64,000 bases of DNA from Anaerolineae bacterium (lineage in GTDB: Bacteria; Chloroflexota; Anaerolineae; Aggregatilineales; UBA2796). Position numbers and translations under genes: made by a program. This document shows, in pieces, positions 18,632 to 58,073 of this stretch (positions within the stretch are counted from its first letter, which is position 1; every line of letters begins with the position of its first letter). A model generated the notes under the pieces. The model was not told the origin of the DNA. It ran no database searches and was given only the letters and a program-made list of their open reading frames with translations. The stretch covers positions 372,001-436,000 of the forward strand of contig JAHBVJ010000001.1 of the NCBI GenBank assembly GCA_019637615.1, read 5' to 3'.

Positions 18632-20713
18632 TTACTGCTGCAATCCGCTGAAATAATTGCGGATGATGCCGCGCAGCGCACCGGGGACGCGGTCATTGTC
18701 CATCGCCCGATCTGCCTGTGAGGCCGCTTGCCCTGCCACATCACCGATGGGCACCATCGAGTTACCCGTCGGGTTATTCGTGAACTCGCCGGTCTGTGTC
18801 GGGTCGTTCGGGTTGATTGGGTTATCGCTCTGCGGGTTGATAGCCTTGCCGCCCTCACCACCCACGAAGGATGGCGCGTAGACGAAATCGTTGCTACCTG
18901 TGCTGCCGTTATTGCCACTGCCATTTTGGGAGTCACCCGGCCCGGACTGGTTGGTCGGCACACCGGACGTTACATCATCACCCGCGCCGCCGGAACCTTG
19001 ACCTGCACCTGCCCCGCCGCCCGTACCATCCGCACGGGTGCTGCTGTCACCTTGTCCGGTAGATTGATCCGACGCACCCGCACCTTGCGCAGCCTGTCCA
19101 TCCGAGCTGCCAGCTTGATCGCCCTGACCACCCTGACCTTGGCCTTGCTGTCCGGATTGGCCTTGTTGCCCTTGTCCCTGTCCCTGTTGGCCTTGCTGTC
19201 CTTGCTGACCCTCTTGTCCCTGTTGACCAGATTGTCCGCTTTGCCCCTGCTGACCTTGCTGTCCAGATTGGCCTTGCTGTCCGGACTGTCCACTTTGTCC
19301 CTGCTGACCAGATTGACCGGACTGTCCGCTTTGCCCCTGTTGGCCTTGCTGCCCCTGTTGACCGGATTGGCCTTGCTGTCCGGACTGTCCACTTTGTCCC
19401 TGCTGGCCTTGTTGACCCTGTTGACCAGATTGACCGGATTGGCCTTGTTGCCCTTGCTGACCGTTCTGCCCTTGTTGTCCGGCTTGCGAATTCGCCTGTT
19501 GTCCTTGTTGACCCTGTTGTCCTTGCTGGCCTTGTTGTCCGGCTTGCGCAACCTGTTGGCTGGCCTGATTAAGTTGATTCGCCGCGTTGTTCGCCGCCTG
19601 ACTTTGCGCGGTTTGCGAGTTCTGCTCCTGCTGTTGCCGCAAGGCGTCGGCAGCTTCCTTGAGCGCTTGCTGTGCCGCCGCCATATCGCCACGCTCCAGC
19701 GCATCCGCTGCCCGGTTGAGCGCATCCGCCGCCGCCGGATTCGTGCTGGCGAGTGCATCCGCCGCTTGGCGCAGTGCCGCCGCGAGGTCTTGCCGCTGCT
19801 CTGGCGTCAGTTGATTTTCGCCCGCGCGTTTTGCCAGCGAATCGAGTGCATTGGCGGCCTCGCCAAGTTGCCCATTTTGCAACGCCTGACCTGCATCCTG
19901 AGAAACGGGACTGCCCGTCATCGCGCGCCCCGCCTGATTCAAGGCTTGCTGCTGCGCATCCGTCAGTTGGTTCGCGGCGTTCTCAAGGTTTTGCTCGGCC
20001 TCGGACAGCGCGGCGACGGCTTCGGGTTGGGTGACGTTGGGCTGCTTTAATTTATCTTGCGCTTGCTGGACGATCTGTTTGAGTTCGGCCTTTTCCGCTT
20101 CGGAGAGATCATCGCGTTTTTCGATGTCCTTCTTGATCTCTTCCAGCTTATCGACTTGCTGCTGAATCGCGCTCTGGATTGCTTGCTGCTGTGCGACAGC
20201 TTCCGACTGCGGATTTGCCAGCATCAACAGCAGCGCCAAGACGAAGATCAAAGTGACGACGCCGAACAGCTCTTTGCGCCGCCATTGCAGCGGGAGCGAT
20301 CTTCCGGCGTTGACTTGTTTGGCATAGGCGACGGAGTCGGTAGCTTGTAACGCGAGGATGTCTTCGGGAGCCTTAATTGCTCCATCGCGCAATTCCAGCG
20401 CCGTACTGACGCGCTCTTGTAGCCCGAAGCGCTTATCGAATAGCCGCGCCGCTTGGATCGCGCTGCGAGGCCACATCCATACCACGAACGCCGCTACCAC
20501 GATCCCAAGGATCGATGCGCCGATGGCAAAGATCAGCAGTTGAGAGGTGAGCAGCCACGGACGCAACCGTGAGAGGAGCGCGACGACAATCGCGAGGAGC
20601 AAGCCCGCGGCCAGACCGCGCGGGAGCCACAGCGTCGATTGTGTCAACCGCAGCCGTCGATCCCACTGAGCGATGTATTTCAACAACTGTTGAATGGTGC
20701 TCGACCCGTCCAT
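18632..20713 (-). CDS. Membrane protein with coiled-coil segment and long Gly-Gln repeat tract
   Basis: 693 residues from ATG 20713, chosen because TGGGAG lies about 8 bases upstream; an in-frame GTG at 20743 is less favoured. Order of features: two N-terminal helices (about 30-80), a cytoplasmic or periplasmic segment with FDKRFGLQERVSTALELRDG, a third helix (about 150-168), a Gln/Glu/Lys-rich coiled-coil region (about 175-395), then a Gly-Gln-Gln-rich low-complexity tract (about 400-560) and a Gly/Ser/Asn-rich tail. It resembles DUF4175-type proteins that accompany MoxR/VWA genes; that identification is tentative. It heads the MoxR-DUF58-GT39-VWA run and could be a scaffold or substrate of the complex. 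Confidence 0.75.
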   Translation of the reverse strand: MDGSSTIQQLLKYIAQWDRRLRLTQSTLWLPRGLAAGLLLAIVVALLSRLRPWLLTSQLLIFAIGASILGIVVAAFVVWMWPRSAIQAARLFDKRFGLQERVSTALELRDGAIKAPEDILALQATDSVAYAKQVNAGRSLPLQWRRKELFGVVTLIFVLALLLMLANPQSEAVAQQQAIQSAIQQQVDKLEEIKKDIEKRDDLSEAEKAELKQIVQQAQDKLKQPNVTQPEAVAALSEAEQNLENAANQLTDAQQQALNQAGRAMTGSPVSQDAGQALQNGQLGEAANALDSLAKRAGENQLTPEQRQDLAAALRQAADALASTNPAAADALNRAADALERGDMAAAQQALKEAADALRQQQEQNSQTAQSQAANNAANQLNQASQQVAQAGQQGQQGQQGQQGQQANSQAGQQGQNGQQGQQGQSGQSGQQGQQGQQGQSGQSGQQGQSGQQGQQGQQGQSGQSGQSGQQGQSGQSGQQGQSGQQGQQGQSGQSGQQGQEGQQGQQGQQGQGQGQQGQSGQQGQGQGGQGDQAGSSDGQAAQGAGASDQSTGQGDSSTRADGTGGGAGAGQGSGGAGDDVTSGVPTNQSGPGDSQNGSGNNGSTGSNDFVYAPSFVGGEGGKAINPQSDNPINPNDPTQTGEFTNNPTGNSMVPIGDVAGQAASQADRAMDNDRVPGALRGIIRNYFSGLQQ
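19120..19552 (-). repeat. Gly-Gln-Gln codon repeat tract inside the membrane protein gene
   Basis: About 430 bases of imperfect 9-base periodicity encoding GQQ, GQS and SGQ units, with synonymous codon variation between units. The reverse frame is also open here, giving a long Leu/Thr-rich antisense ORF that is not a gene. Confidence 0.9.
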
Positions 20714-35215: not shown

Positions 35216-35243
35216 TTGACAATCCGAAAATATGTCTTATAAT
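35216..35243 (+). promoter_or_regulatory. Near-consensus sigma70 promoter
   Basis: TTGACA (35216-35221), 16-base spacer, TATAAT (35238-35243). Both hexamers are perfect. The start site would be near 35250. No full-length gene follows for over 1.3 kb, only repeats, hairpins, a 13-codon ORF and a gene remnant. Confidence 0.75.
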
Positions 35244-35340
35244 ACTCACTATCGACAAATGTCCCTAATCGGCGTTTGCAACCAATGACTAACGCCGCTG
35301 CCCGTCTCCCGAATGAGTTCCCGTCATGTACAAGTCGCCA

Positions 35341-35463
35341 TTTGCCTGATCTTTGCCTGTTATCGCCTGATCTTTGCCTGATCCACTCGGTTCAGGATGG
35401 TTCATTGAGCAGAGAATGTCGTCTGTTAAATTTTTTGCCTGTTTATCAGGCAGATCAGGCAAA
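35341..35463 (+). repeat. TTTGCCTG repeat cluster with alternative hairpins
   Basis: TTTGCCTG occurs at 35341, 35352, 35373 and 35434 and its inverse at 35456-35463. The last pair can form an 8-bp hairpin (35434-35441/35456-35463) that excludes an inner one, GCCTG (35437-35441) with CAGGC (35447-35451). The arrangement lies about 90 bases into the transcript expected from the 35216 promoter. Confidence 0.7.
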
Positions 35464-35541
35464 TGAGTGTGATGCAGATTGGCTGTGTCTTTACTTAGCA
35501 CTAAGGACTAAGCACTCAGCACTTTCCCTAGCCCGTTATTT

Positions 35542-55531: not shown

Positions 55532-56179
55532 ATGCTCCCGATCTCCGTTGACGATGTACGCCGTGCGCTAAACCTGCCAGACTTTGATCCCCACGCAGCT
55601 CAACTGCGCATGGCTCCTCGTCCGCGTCCTATCCGTCGTCCTGATCGCCCCGGACAACCTCGCCTCGGCGGTGTCTTGATCCTGCTTTACCCGCGTGATG
55701 GTGAACTTTACTTCGTGTTGACGCAGCGTCCCGAATATAATGGCGTCCACAGCGGGCAGATCAGTTTGCCGGGTGGCAAGCATGAAGGCGACGAAACCAT
55801 GATCGACACCGCGCTGCGGGAAACGTGCGAAGAGGTCGGCGTGTGTGAAGGCATTGAGGTGCTAGGCACATTGGCGGAGTTGTACATCCCGCCGAGCGAT
55901 TTTGAAGTGCATCCCGTCGTTGGCTACATTCCACAGCGTCCCACGTGGCACCCTGACGCGCTCGAAGTCGCTGGTATTATCGAGACACCGCTGCGACTTT
56001 TGTTCGATGACTCCATCAAAGGCAATGAGGCTGTTTTCCGTGCCGATGTCAATATGACGCTCAACATCTATTTCTATCTCATCGAAGGCCGTAAGGTGTG
56101 GGGAGCCACTGCTGCCATCCTATCCGAGTTCGAAGGGCGACTCCGTGCCGCCTTGAACCTCCCCTTCACCGCTGTGTGA
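55532..56179 (+). CDS. NUDIX hydrolase, CoA diphosphatase-like
   Basis: 215 residues. The Nudix box (82-104) reads GKHEGDE then REtcEEVGV, close to GX5EX7REUXEEXGU. Just before it is VLTQRPEYNGVHSGQISLPGG, matching the NuCoA motif of CoA pyrophosphatases (NudL/YeaB-like). It would hydrolyse CoA or related diphosphates to 3',5'-ADP and phosphopantetheine. It begins 3 bases after the orphan gene, last in the operon. Whether it serves the E2/JAB/E1 pathway or only hitch-hikes is unknown. Confidence 0.88.
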   Translation: MLPISVDDVRRALNLPDFDPHAAQLRMAPRPRPIRRPDRPGQPRLGGVLILLYPRDGELYFVLTQRPEYNGVHSGQISLPGGKHEGDETMIDTALRETCEEVGVCEGIEVLGTLAELYIPPSDFEVHPVVGYIPQRPTWHPDALEVAGIIETPLRLLFDDSIKGNEAVFRADVNMTLNIYFYLIEGRKVWGATAAILSEFEGRLRAALNLPFTAV

Positions 56180-56208
56180 TCTAGTTTTCCAAATGCGGAA
56201 ACTTACCC

Positions 56209-56237
56209 TTGACTCAATTCAAATGTTCGGATATACT
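56209..56237 (+). promoter_or_regulatory. Sigma70-type promoter for the DUF3048 gene
   Basis: TTGACT (56209-56214), 17-base spacer, TATACT (56232-56237). The transcript would have a leader of about 260 bases containing the repeat array. Confidence 0.65.
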
Positions 56238-56290
56238 TGTTCGCATGAATGCACTTGGAGTACATCATCAACCACCTTTCCAACCAGCAA

Positions 56291-56452
56291 ATGATCTGAA
56301 TCCGAATTTCTCTCGGAATCGTAGCAGAAATGATCTGAATTAAGCAGTCAAATCAGATCATTTTCAGATCATTTGACCCTTCCTGACCCAATCTAAATGA
56401 TCTGAATCCCACACTCAAATGCTAGATTCGATCATTCGCAATGATCTGAATC
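56291..56452. repeat. Dispersed ATGATCTGAAT array
   Basis: Direct copies of ATGATCTGAAT(C/T) at 56291, 56330, 56397 and 56441, and two inverted near-copies at 56351-56361 and 56363-56372. Unequal spacing (39, 67, 44) and lack of conserved spacers rule out CRISPR. It lies in the leader of the DUF3048 gene. Confidence 0.9.
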
Positions 56453-56506
56453 GGCATCCCGCCAAATTGCTAAAATAGGGATCGTAGTCTCAACAGGGAA
56501 TGCACC

Positions 56507-57628
56507 ATGTGGATATGGCGAAGACAATATGTCAGGCGGGGCTTTGTCCTCTTTATCGGCCTGCTATTGGTTGGTTTTGGCCTATTCCTGTGGCGACCGT
56601 CACTCCAAGTTGGCAGTCAATCCGCCACGTCCGCCCCCGCGCCCACCTTTGCACCCGATGTCAATCCGCTGACCGGGCTGCGTGTCGATGATCCCACTGT
56701 CTTGCAGCGCCGCCCCCTTGCCGTCAAGATCAGCAACGGGCCAGCCATCGTCCGTCCGCAAGCGGGCATTGCCGACGCCGATCTCGTTTTCGAGCACATT
56801 ACCGAGGGTCGCATCACGCGCTTCACCGCCGTCTATTGGACACATACGCCACCGCGTGTCGGTTCGATCCGCAGCGCTCGCCTCATCGATCTGGAGATCG
56901 CGGTCATGTATAAGGCGCTGTTTGCCTTTGCTGGTGCGAGTGAAGGCGTGCGTAATAAGGTCTTTGCTTCCAGCTTCGGGGAGCGCGCCTTCGAGGGTGT
57001 AAGCGTCGGCGCGCCCACCTTCTACCGTGATGACTCTATCGAGCCGCCGCATAACCTGTTCGCTGATCCATCGGCGCTGTGGGCATTAGCCGATAAGCGC
57101 GGTGTCGATCAGCCCGAACCGGTGGCTGGGATGCAGTTCAGTGACACCATCCCGTCAAGTCTCGACCCGCTCACTCAGTCCGCCAATATCATCAGCATCG
57201 ACTACGGTCCCACTACAGCGGAATGGCGCTACGATTCCGGCACGGGTCGGTATATGCGCTGGACGGATGATGGTACCGATACCCTTGTGCCACATGTGGA
57301 TGCCAACACCAGCCAACAGGTCAGTGCCGCCAACGTCGTCATCTTGCGGGCGTGGCATCAAGAAGACGTGACCATCGTGGAAAGTGAATGGCAGGGCGTC
57401 AAATCCTATTCCGTCGAGATTCAGCTATGGACACTTGGCCCCGCATTAGTTTGTCGGGACGGGCGCTGTATTCGTGGTCAATGGAACCGTTGGGACAAAG
57501 CCGATATGCTCACCTTCTGGACAGAAGCCGACCATCAGCCCATCTACTTGAAGCCGGGGAATACATGGTTTCAGGTCGTCAATCTCCCCGACGCACCCAA
57601 AATGCAGCAGACCATCAACATTCGGTGA
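56507..57628 (+). CDS. DUF3048 (YerB-like) membrane-anchored extracellular protein
   Basis: 373 residues, ATG 56507 after CAGGGAA. Residues 14-30 form an N-terminal membrane anchor (signal-anchor; no lipobox Cys). DUF3048 blocks follow: NPLTGLRVDD, RRPLAVKISNGPAIVRPQAG, DLVFEHITEGRITRFTAVYW and GSIRSARLIDLEIA, then FRDDS-like and NLFAD segments, and a C-terminal domain with ADHQPIYLKPGNTWFQVV. YerB-type proteins are outside the membrane, role unclear. Unusual upstream region: a promoter plus a repeat array. Confidence 0.88.
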   Translation: MWIWRRQYVRRGFVLFIGLLLVGFGLFLWRPSLQVGSQSATSAPAPTFAPDVNPLTGLRVDDPTVLQRRPLAVKISNGPAIVRPQAGIADADLVFEHITEGRITRFTAVYWTHTPPRVGSIRSARLIDLEIAVMYKALFAFAGASEGVRNKVFASSFGERAFEGVSVGAPTFYRDDSIEPPHNLFADPSALWALADKRGVDQPEPVAGMQFSDTIPSSLDPLTQSANIISIDYGPTTAEWRYDSGTGRYMRWTDDGTDTLVPHVDANTSQQVSAANVVILRAWHQEDVTIVESEWQGVKSYSVEIQLWTLGPALVCRDGRCIRGQWNRWDKADMLTFWTEADHQPIYLKPGNTWFQVVNLPDAPKMQQTINIR

Positions 57629-57658
57629 GTTACTTTAAATTAGAGTGTGAATGGACGC

Positions 57659-58073
57659 CTATCGCGTGTTGGACGGTCGCTCGTTGCCGATGATGTTCTT
57701 ATGCTCATCGACTTTCAACAATCCCTTGGTGGCATCCAGCATCACAAACTGGTTGCCCCAAGGGTCAGCTACGACTGCCGCGCGTCCGATCTGAATATCG
57801 AAAGGTGGCACGATGACTTTTCCGCCAACTTGTTCATGCTTCAACGCAGTTTCCACCCAGTTCGACCATCAGATCGACGTTAAGGCCGTGCCGTTCGGTC
57901 TGCAAGACGATTTCGGCGTCAGAGTCAGGCAGTCCCAATCCGGCGGCTGTCTTGCTGCGCCACTTCAACTCCTGACCAAGTTGAGCGCAGTAAAACGCGA
58001 TGCCTGCCTCTAAATCGGGCACAAAGAATTCAATGCAATCCACTTTTCGCAGTAAAGGAATTGGAGACGACAT
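57659..58073 (-). pseudogene. VOC/glyoxalase-like gene broken by a one-base frameshift
   Basis: ATG 58073 with AGAGGAG 8-10 bases upstream opens a 79-codon frame (MSSPIPLLRKVDCIEFFVPDL) that stops at 57834. The VOC fold continues in another frame to 57659 (VETALKHEQVGGKVIV, then AVVADPWGNQFVMLD). An extra G in the GGG at 57856-57858 accounts for the shift: removing it rejoins VEL to VETAL. The corrected protein would be about 138 residues. Real mutation or sequencing error cannot be told apart. Confidence 0.8.

Follow-up and report, generated by a model that had tools for sequence, protein, structure and literature searches.

A genome-specific family of dispersed intergenic repeats with its own promoter, probably transcribed into RNA

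The array of short direct and inverted words that precedes a DUF3048 gene in the analysed window (the whole stretch of 64,000 nucleotides) probably represents one copy of a lineage-specific, dispersed and non-autonomous family of non-coding repeats that is transcribed into structured RNA (probability roughly 0.7). We consider this family, designated family A, to be a repeat family probably making RNA and not a switch of the neighbouring gene, because its 34 copies are scattered and nearly all of them have a promoter of their own.

The window contains exact direct copies of the motif at positions 56291, 56330, 56397 and 56441 (n = 4) and inverted copies with one mismatch each at positions 56351 and 56362. 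With up to one mismatch allowed, the motif has eight matches in the window compared to a mean of 1.4 in shuffled sequences, and none of 100 shuffles reached eight. The four direct and two inverted copies had been recorded in the initial annotation together with a promoter ahead of them and a gene for a DUF3048 protein behind, all of which were confirmed (the promoter scores 10 of 12). Its proposal that direct and inverted copies can pair in RNA is supported as a possibility, and its view that the array is not CRISPR holds, given the unequal spacing and both orientations; the same unequal spacing recurs in other copies. The start codon of the DUF3048 gene is located 54 nt downstream of the element (Table 1). 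A terminator-like site was looked for in the region 56100-57800 and none was found, and a scan of the window with Rfam 15 at the gathering score produced a tRNA as the sole match.

Table 1. Coordinates of the family A copy, its neighbouring gene and a family E element in the window.
Feature	Position	Strand	Remarks
Sigma-70-type promoter TTGACT-17-TATACT	56209..56237	+	Conserved spacer box TTCAAATGTTCG, common to other family A copies and family B
Putative transcribed 5' segment	56243..56287	+	Sequence unrelated among 17 short promoter-bearing copies
Conserved core, family A short form	56288..56452	+	From alignments of 34 copies
Direct word 1, AATGATCTGAAT	56290..56301	+	
Direct word 2	56329..56340	+	
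Loop tag TTAAGCAG (family form TTRAGCAG)	56340..56347	+	Separates word 2 from inverted word 1
Inverted word 1	56350..56361	-	Pairing partner of direct word 2
Inverted word 2	56362..56373	-	Able to pair with direct word 1
Conserved C-rich stretch GACCCTTCCTGACCC	56375..56389	+	GACCCYTCCTGACC in most copies
Direct word 3	56396..56407	+	
Degenerate inverted word or half, GATTCGATCATT	56425..56436	-	Forms a hairpin with word 4
Direct word 4	56440..56452	+	
DUF3048 gene	56507..57628	+	Neighbour outside the element
Family E element	35216..35475	+	Promoter 35216-35243; TTTGCCTG words and inverted copies 35341-35475; tag TTGAGCAG near 35404

The genome holding the window comprises 8.21 Mb in 76 contigs (85% complete, 6.9% contamination). 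The 11-mer ATGATCTGAAT occurs in it 100 times, with about two occurrences expected from base composition and none found for the reversed control. Retrieval of the motif gave 45 places, 34 of which align over the core, while the remaining 11 represent single exact matches that could not be aligned to the element. The elements of this one internal layout hold 89 of the 100 exact matches, and all 34 core-aligned copies keep the same internal spacings (39, 67 and 44-45 nt). A longer pattern spanning the loop, ATGATCTGAATTRAGCAG, was found with at most one mismatch in 34 places on 20 contigs. Many similar non-coding intergenic copies in one genome are what generally defines a small interspersed bacterial repeat, and family A has them.

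Beyond this genome, the pattern ATGATCTGAATTRAGCAG had no match among 60 relatives. A sequence profile of the family (R1, from 33 of its 34 copies) found nothing in 120 relatives and, under strict filters, nothing in 399 other genomes of the phylum, a set that overlaps the 120 relatives. Nothing similar to family A was detected in plasmids, phages and viral contigs. As far as could be looked, family A appears confined to one species within the range of genomes searched. An exact 18-mer gave four single matches across genome contigs, three of them without a second copy nearby and the fourth (L146) with a one-mismatch copy 43 nt away; all four were taken as chance. In the sister species no empty insertion site could be read: the downstream neighbour of the NUDIX gene differs, judged by DNA similarity, and the best DUF3048 match lies elsewhere.

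The initial annotation had also placed the array in the leader of the DUF3048 gene and proposed a genome search for motif clusters, where many would argue for a repeat family and one for an operator array. The search returned many (34), located beside unrelated genes. Although the array is genuine and exceeds chance expectation by far, it is no DUF3048 operator. According to flanking ORFs from a simple ORF heuristic, 14 copies have divergent genes on either side, 11 have genes co-directional with the element, four have genes that run against it and five have converging genes. The location of the array between promoter and start codon would suit an operator or leader dedicated to this gene, as would the co-directional downstream gene found in 25 of the 34 copies; however, 14 of these 25 are situated between divergent genes, where either orientation yields co-direction. 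In nine of the 34 copies the downstream gene is read opposite to the element, and therefore these cannot serve as a leader of the next downstream gene. Of the 33 right-hand ORFs other than the DUF3048 gene, 30 were scanned; 23 of these have a Pfam family, and the families are largely unrelated, including FtsZ, CTP synthase, a UvrB-interaction/helicase protein, GH4 and lactate permease. Functionally related downstream genes, as they would follow a riboswitch or operator leader, were not found across these 30 of the 33 other right-hand ORFs. Because the downstream neighbours are unrelated, both a regulon and a dedicated operator are disfavoured. With 34 copies of the same layout in the genome, five of them between converging genes, and with unrelated genes downstream, a single-gene operator array was rejected, and we rate it as highly improbable.

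A sigma-70-type promoter is present 73-95 nt upstream of the core in 31 of the 34 copies versus 2 of 68 control windows (cut-off score at least 10, counted as matches of 12 with one added for a perfect TTGAC). Judged by sequence, family A thus has the own promoter of a transcribed non-coding RNA gene. Most of these promoters resemble TTGACTCAACTCAAATGTTCG. Five copies (L033, L044, L062, L067 and L075) have quite different promoter sequences that nevertheless fit the consensus, suggesting that it is promoter function that has been retained. A LexA/SOS box was considered for the spacer of the promoter, where GTTC precedes the -10 box, and was dropped, as the right half-site alone fits most of family A; the lexA gene of the sister genome carries TTGAC-N11-GTTCG, and the L062 promoter has the full GAACTAGAGTTC.

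Family A occurs in a short and a long form, and the copy in the window is short. The core begins with the direct words AATGATCTGAAT, followed by the loop TTRAGCAG, the inverted words, the C-rich GACCCYTCCTGACC and a second word module. Among 17 short promoter-bearing copies, the window copy included, the promoters have a mean pairwise identity of 0.70 and the following 39-62 nt one of 0.49 (0.47 when shuffled). The opening 103 nt of the core reach 0.88, and the loosely conserved 17-nt core loop reaches 0.70 (shuffled 0.48). The corresponding values for 14 long copies are 0.84, 0.67, 0.85 and 0.64. The 5' segment shows a mean folding z of -0.71 versus -0.08 in controls and falls below -1.5 in 9 of 34 copies versus 3 of 34. 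In 15 long copies its hairpin has 68.3% paired cells compared to 64.9% in shuffled alignments (3/500) and 15 double-change cells compared to 9.6 (22/500), with a pair-type count no better than shuffled (348/500); these values are no more than suggestive of a fold. Apart from other family A copies, a search for targets of the 5' segments over 676 kb (about 8% of the genome) produced a single match, a weak one of 17 nt (E 0.32).

That the copies are small ORFs with a leaderless start codon by the -10 box seems scarcely credible. A few of them (L068 and L045), read by eye, are open from GTG to ATGATCTGA. However, the near-identical L045 and L066 differ by one nucleotide in the distance from promoter to core, which shifts the frame, and a coding role of the element was rejected on this upstream-segment difference.

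The family A core folds below dinucleotide shuffles, with a z-score under -2 in 32 of 34 copies and a mean z of -4.0 for the sense strand. Antisense cores have a mean z of -3.35 and fall below -2 in 30 of 34. Raw energies are more favourable for the antisense strand in 33 of 34 copies, whereas the composition-corrected z gives a slight lead to the sense strand (23 of 34, p = 0.014). The stems are nearly invariant and RNAalifold reveals no compensatory change, so that RNA structure of family A is not proven by covariation. In many copies word 1 reads CCGAAT with the partner unchanged. Rfam 15 covariance models had no match at E <= 0.5 in eight loci of families A, B and E.

The promoter box pattern has 49 matches in the genome, and the 30 loci examined comprise 14 of family A, 15 of a second family (B) and one of neither. 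Family B has the same promoter box with a word of its own, ATGATCGG, and the two families appear to be linked through this shared 21-nt box. In all 15 family B copies the partner of a 23-nt arm matches at 21-23 positions, and 14 of 15 carry the tag CTGAGCA. Terminal inverted repeats of 16 bp, ACTCACCTTACGCAGT, are present on at least one end in 14 of 15 copies and on both ends in 9 of 15, giving family B the terminal repeats of a MITE; it was not found among 60 relatives. One promoterless family A copy (L070, G000:C45:127400-128500) comes after the body of a family B element, and its homology to family A starts near the expected transcription start. A short element (family D: L216, L217, L218 and L225) has the same termini as family B and the classical MITE layout, with a length of about 125 bp, ends ACTCACCTTACGCAG...GTTGCGTAAGGTCAGT and a CCCCCTCTCCGCTTCGC hairpin.

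Family E uses the words TTTGCCTG or CCCTGTT, which are direct before and inverted after the centre CGGTTCAGGAYGGCTCATYTGAGC. Its pattern was found in 22 places in the genome plus one in the window (35326-35486, behind the promoter TTGACA-16-TATAAT), and none was found among 80 relatives. The proportion of C-type words in the left part correlates at 0.84 with the proportion of G-type words in the right part (0/20,000 permutations). RNAalifold yields a three-helix structure with 92.9% paired cells (84.6% shuffled, 0/500), 26 double-change cells (11.1 shuffled, 0/500) and a covariation score of 0.179 (0.068 shuffled, 0/500); measures that count pairs and pair types are weaker (40/500 and 46/500). 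These covariation counts lean towards structure but are not independent, because the structure itself came from this alignment and tandem duplicates are included among the copies. Tandem copies lie about 285-290 bp apart in L274, L283 and L284 (G000:C12:70740-71336) and in L280 and L272 (G000:C5:190803-191116). Thus, RNA structure is well supported for family E and a possibility for family A. We infer the tie of family E to A and B from the common plan and tag only.

Several other repeats were seen along the way. Runs of a recurring (T)AGCACT unit (TTAGCACTAAGCACT) occur in L049, L072 and alongside several family E copies. At 19100-19542 of the window there are degenerate ccttgctgtccggattg-type repeats, probably a coding low-complexity stretch. 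An array scan covering 365 kb of the sister genome picked up four places; all of them are built on different words, and we interpret them as palindromes or tandem repeats of an ordinary kind.

Families A, B and E are best read as a lineage-specific superfamily of non-autonomous repeats whose members would be transcribed into structured RNA; we infer the transcription, the mobilising enzyme and any function. At the copy in the window RNA polymerase would start near 56243, and each copy would produce from its own promoter an RNA of about 200-250 nt. The transcript would consist of a copy-specific segment and a core of nested hairpins, in which direct and inverted words pair around the loop. The family would multiply as a non-autonomous element by means of an enzyme encoded elsewhere. 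Any effect on the DUF3048 gene would be incidental, although the element may supply or shield a leader there. It is also conceivable, albeit very improbable, that A, B and E form one superfamily of RNA genes built on a shared order of promoter, copy-specific 5' segment, direct words, TTGAGCAG-like loop and inverted words. Each family would have a word of its own, altered jointly at every site, and the unique 5' segment of each short copy on a constant scaffold would represent a guide or target-recognition layout. The word would then allow a partner protein, or the RNAs themselves, to distinguish the families.

Mobility of family A was analysed at the element ends. The repeat pattern of family B detected terminal inverted repeats in 0 of 14 copies, inverted matches of the two ends have much the same length within and between copies (6.16 same-copy, 6.12 cross-copy), and direct end matches in 31 copies are 5.77 same-copy versus 5.85 cross-copy, with element ends that are not sharply defined. 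Since terminal repeats and target duplications were not detected, family A is not to be filed as a MITE. A transposase tied to family A was sought in the genome and none was found. A locus of family B and E sequences (L213, G000:C12:202700-204200) has inverted family B-like ends about 980 bp apart, with a family E array and a CCCTGTT array between them. When an autonomous partner was sought in this 85% complete genome, the 980-bp interior had no transposase-like ORF. The single Y1 (RAYT-like) transposase gene detected (L290, G000:C11:126035-126376) is flanked by inverted copies of CCCGGTGATAAATCACCGGGCTGAAGGTAG, and its palindrome, CCCGGTGATAAATCACCGGG, differs from the A, B and E words. Because the only detected Y1 gene adjoins another palindrome, a REP/RAYT system does not fit these words.

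We consider two other readings of the repeats unlikely. The words may be DNA sites that were dispersed as a repeat and are bound by a protein such as a transposase, a regulator or a nucleoid protein, with the hairpins a by-product of sites in two orientations. In favour of this, the family A words are nearly invariant with stems free of compensatory change, and the direct words are uniform in any one element although they are unable to pair among themselves. In family E, a second word position varies between A and T with an inconsistent partner match, and the promoters could have belonged to a former transposase gene and persist as relics. However, 31 of 34 promoters were kept while the segment behind them diverged, and family E has compensatory changes. 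Alternatively, and rather doubtfully, the copies may be plain decaying filler of MITE-like or REP-like type, in which the promoter is merely the relic of a transposon end. The 16-bp terminal inverted repeats of the sister family B and the short family D with the same termini agree with this. However, family A is without such terminal repeats, and a relic should hardly have retained promoters that differ in sequence and yet stay close to the consensus.

Several hairpin repeat families populate this genome; they keep promoter and scaffold and leave the intervening segment free to change, and they were not found in the closest of the relatives searched. If they are transcribed, nature would have set up a test of whether interspersed repeats in bacteria exist as RNA genes or as passive DNA. 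Since the word differs from one family to the next, it offers a route to the protein or pairing partner that may read it.

Bacterial small interspersed repeats with strong hairpins are already known (PMC2229807, PMC3049150, PMC2267715, PMC3733652). Open-licence PMC papers gave no description of families A, B and E, as far as a repeat without a name can be searched for, and we have not seen described a plan of kept inward promoter, free segment and word-coded core that is common to several families of one genome. BOX, RUP and SPRITE of Streptococcus pneumoniae are small, interspersed, modular and intergenic repeats, structured when transcribed and nearly limited to one species and its closest relative (PMC3049150). 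Family A is likewise a small interspersed, modular, intergenic and near-single-species repeat, and it would also be structured once transcribed. In contrast, BOX and RUP are described there with terminal inverted repeats and target duplications, neither of which was detected in family A; unlike them, it has an inward promoter of its own, and it has short direct and inverted words around a loop where BOX has tandem boxB units (PMC3049150). Correia/NEMIS, ERIC and other bacterial MITEs are presented as non-autonomous elements of about 100-200 bp with strong hairpins and, in some cases, putative promoters (PMC2229807). Family A would share with them the non-autonomous nature, and it shares size, strong hairpins and a promoter, but terminal inverted repeats and target duplications were not detected in it and its one promoter reads inward, with an unrelated segment behind. 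REP sequences with a RAYT transposase are high-copy intergenic palindromes (PMC3733652), as are the family A repeats. A systematic survey covering 40 genomes chosen by 2008 reports stem-loop families with shared secondary structure that are mostly intergenic and thought to act as RNA, and family A, compared by description, resembles them (PMC2267715).
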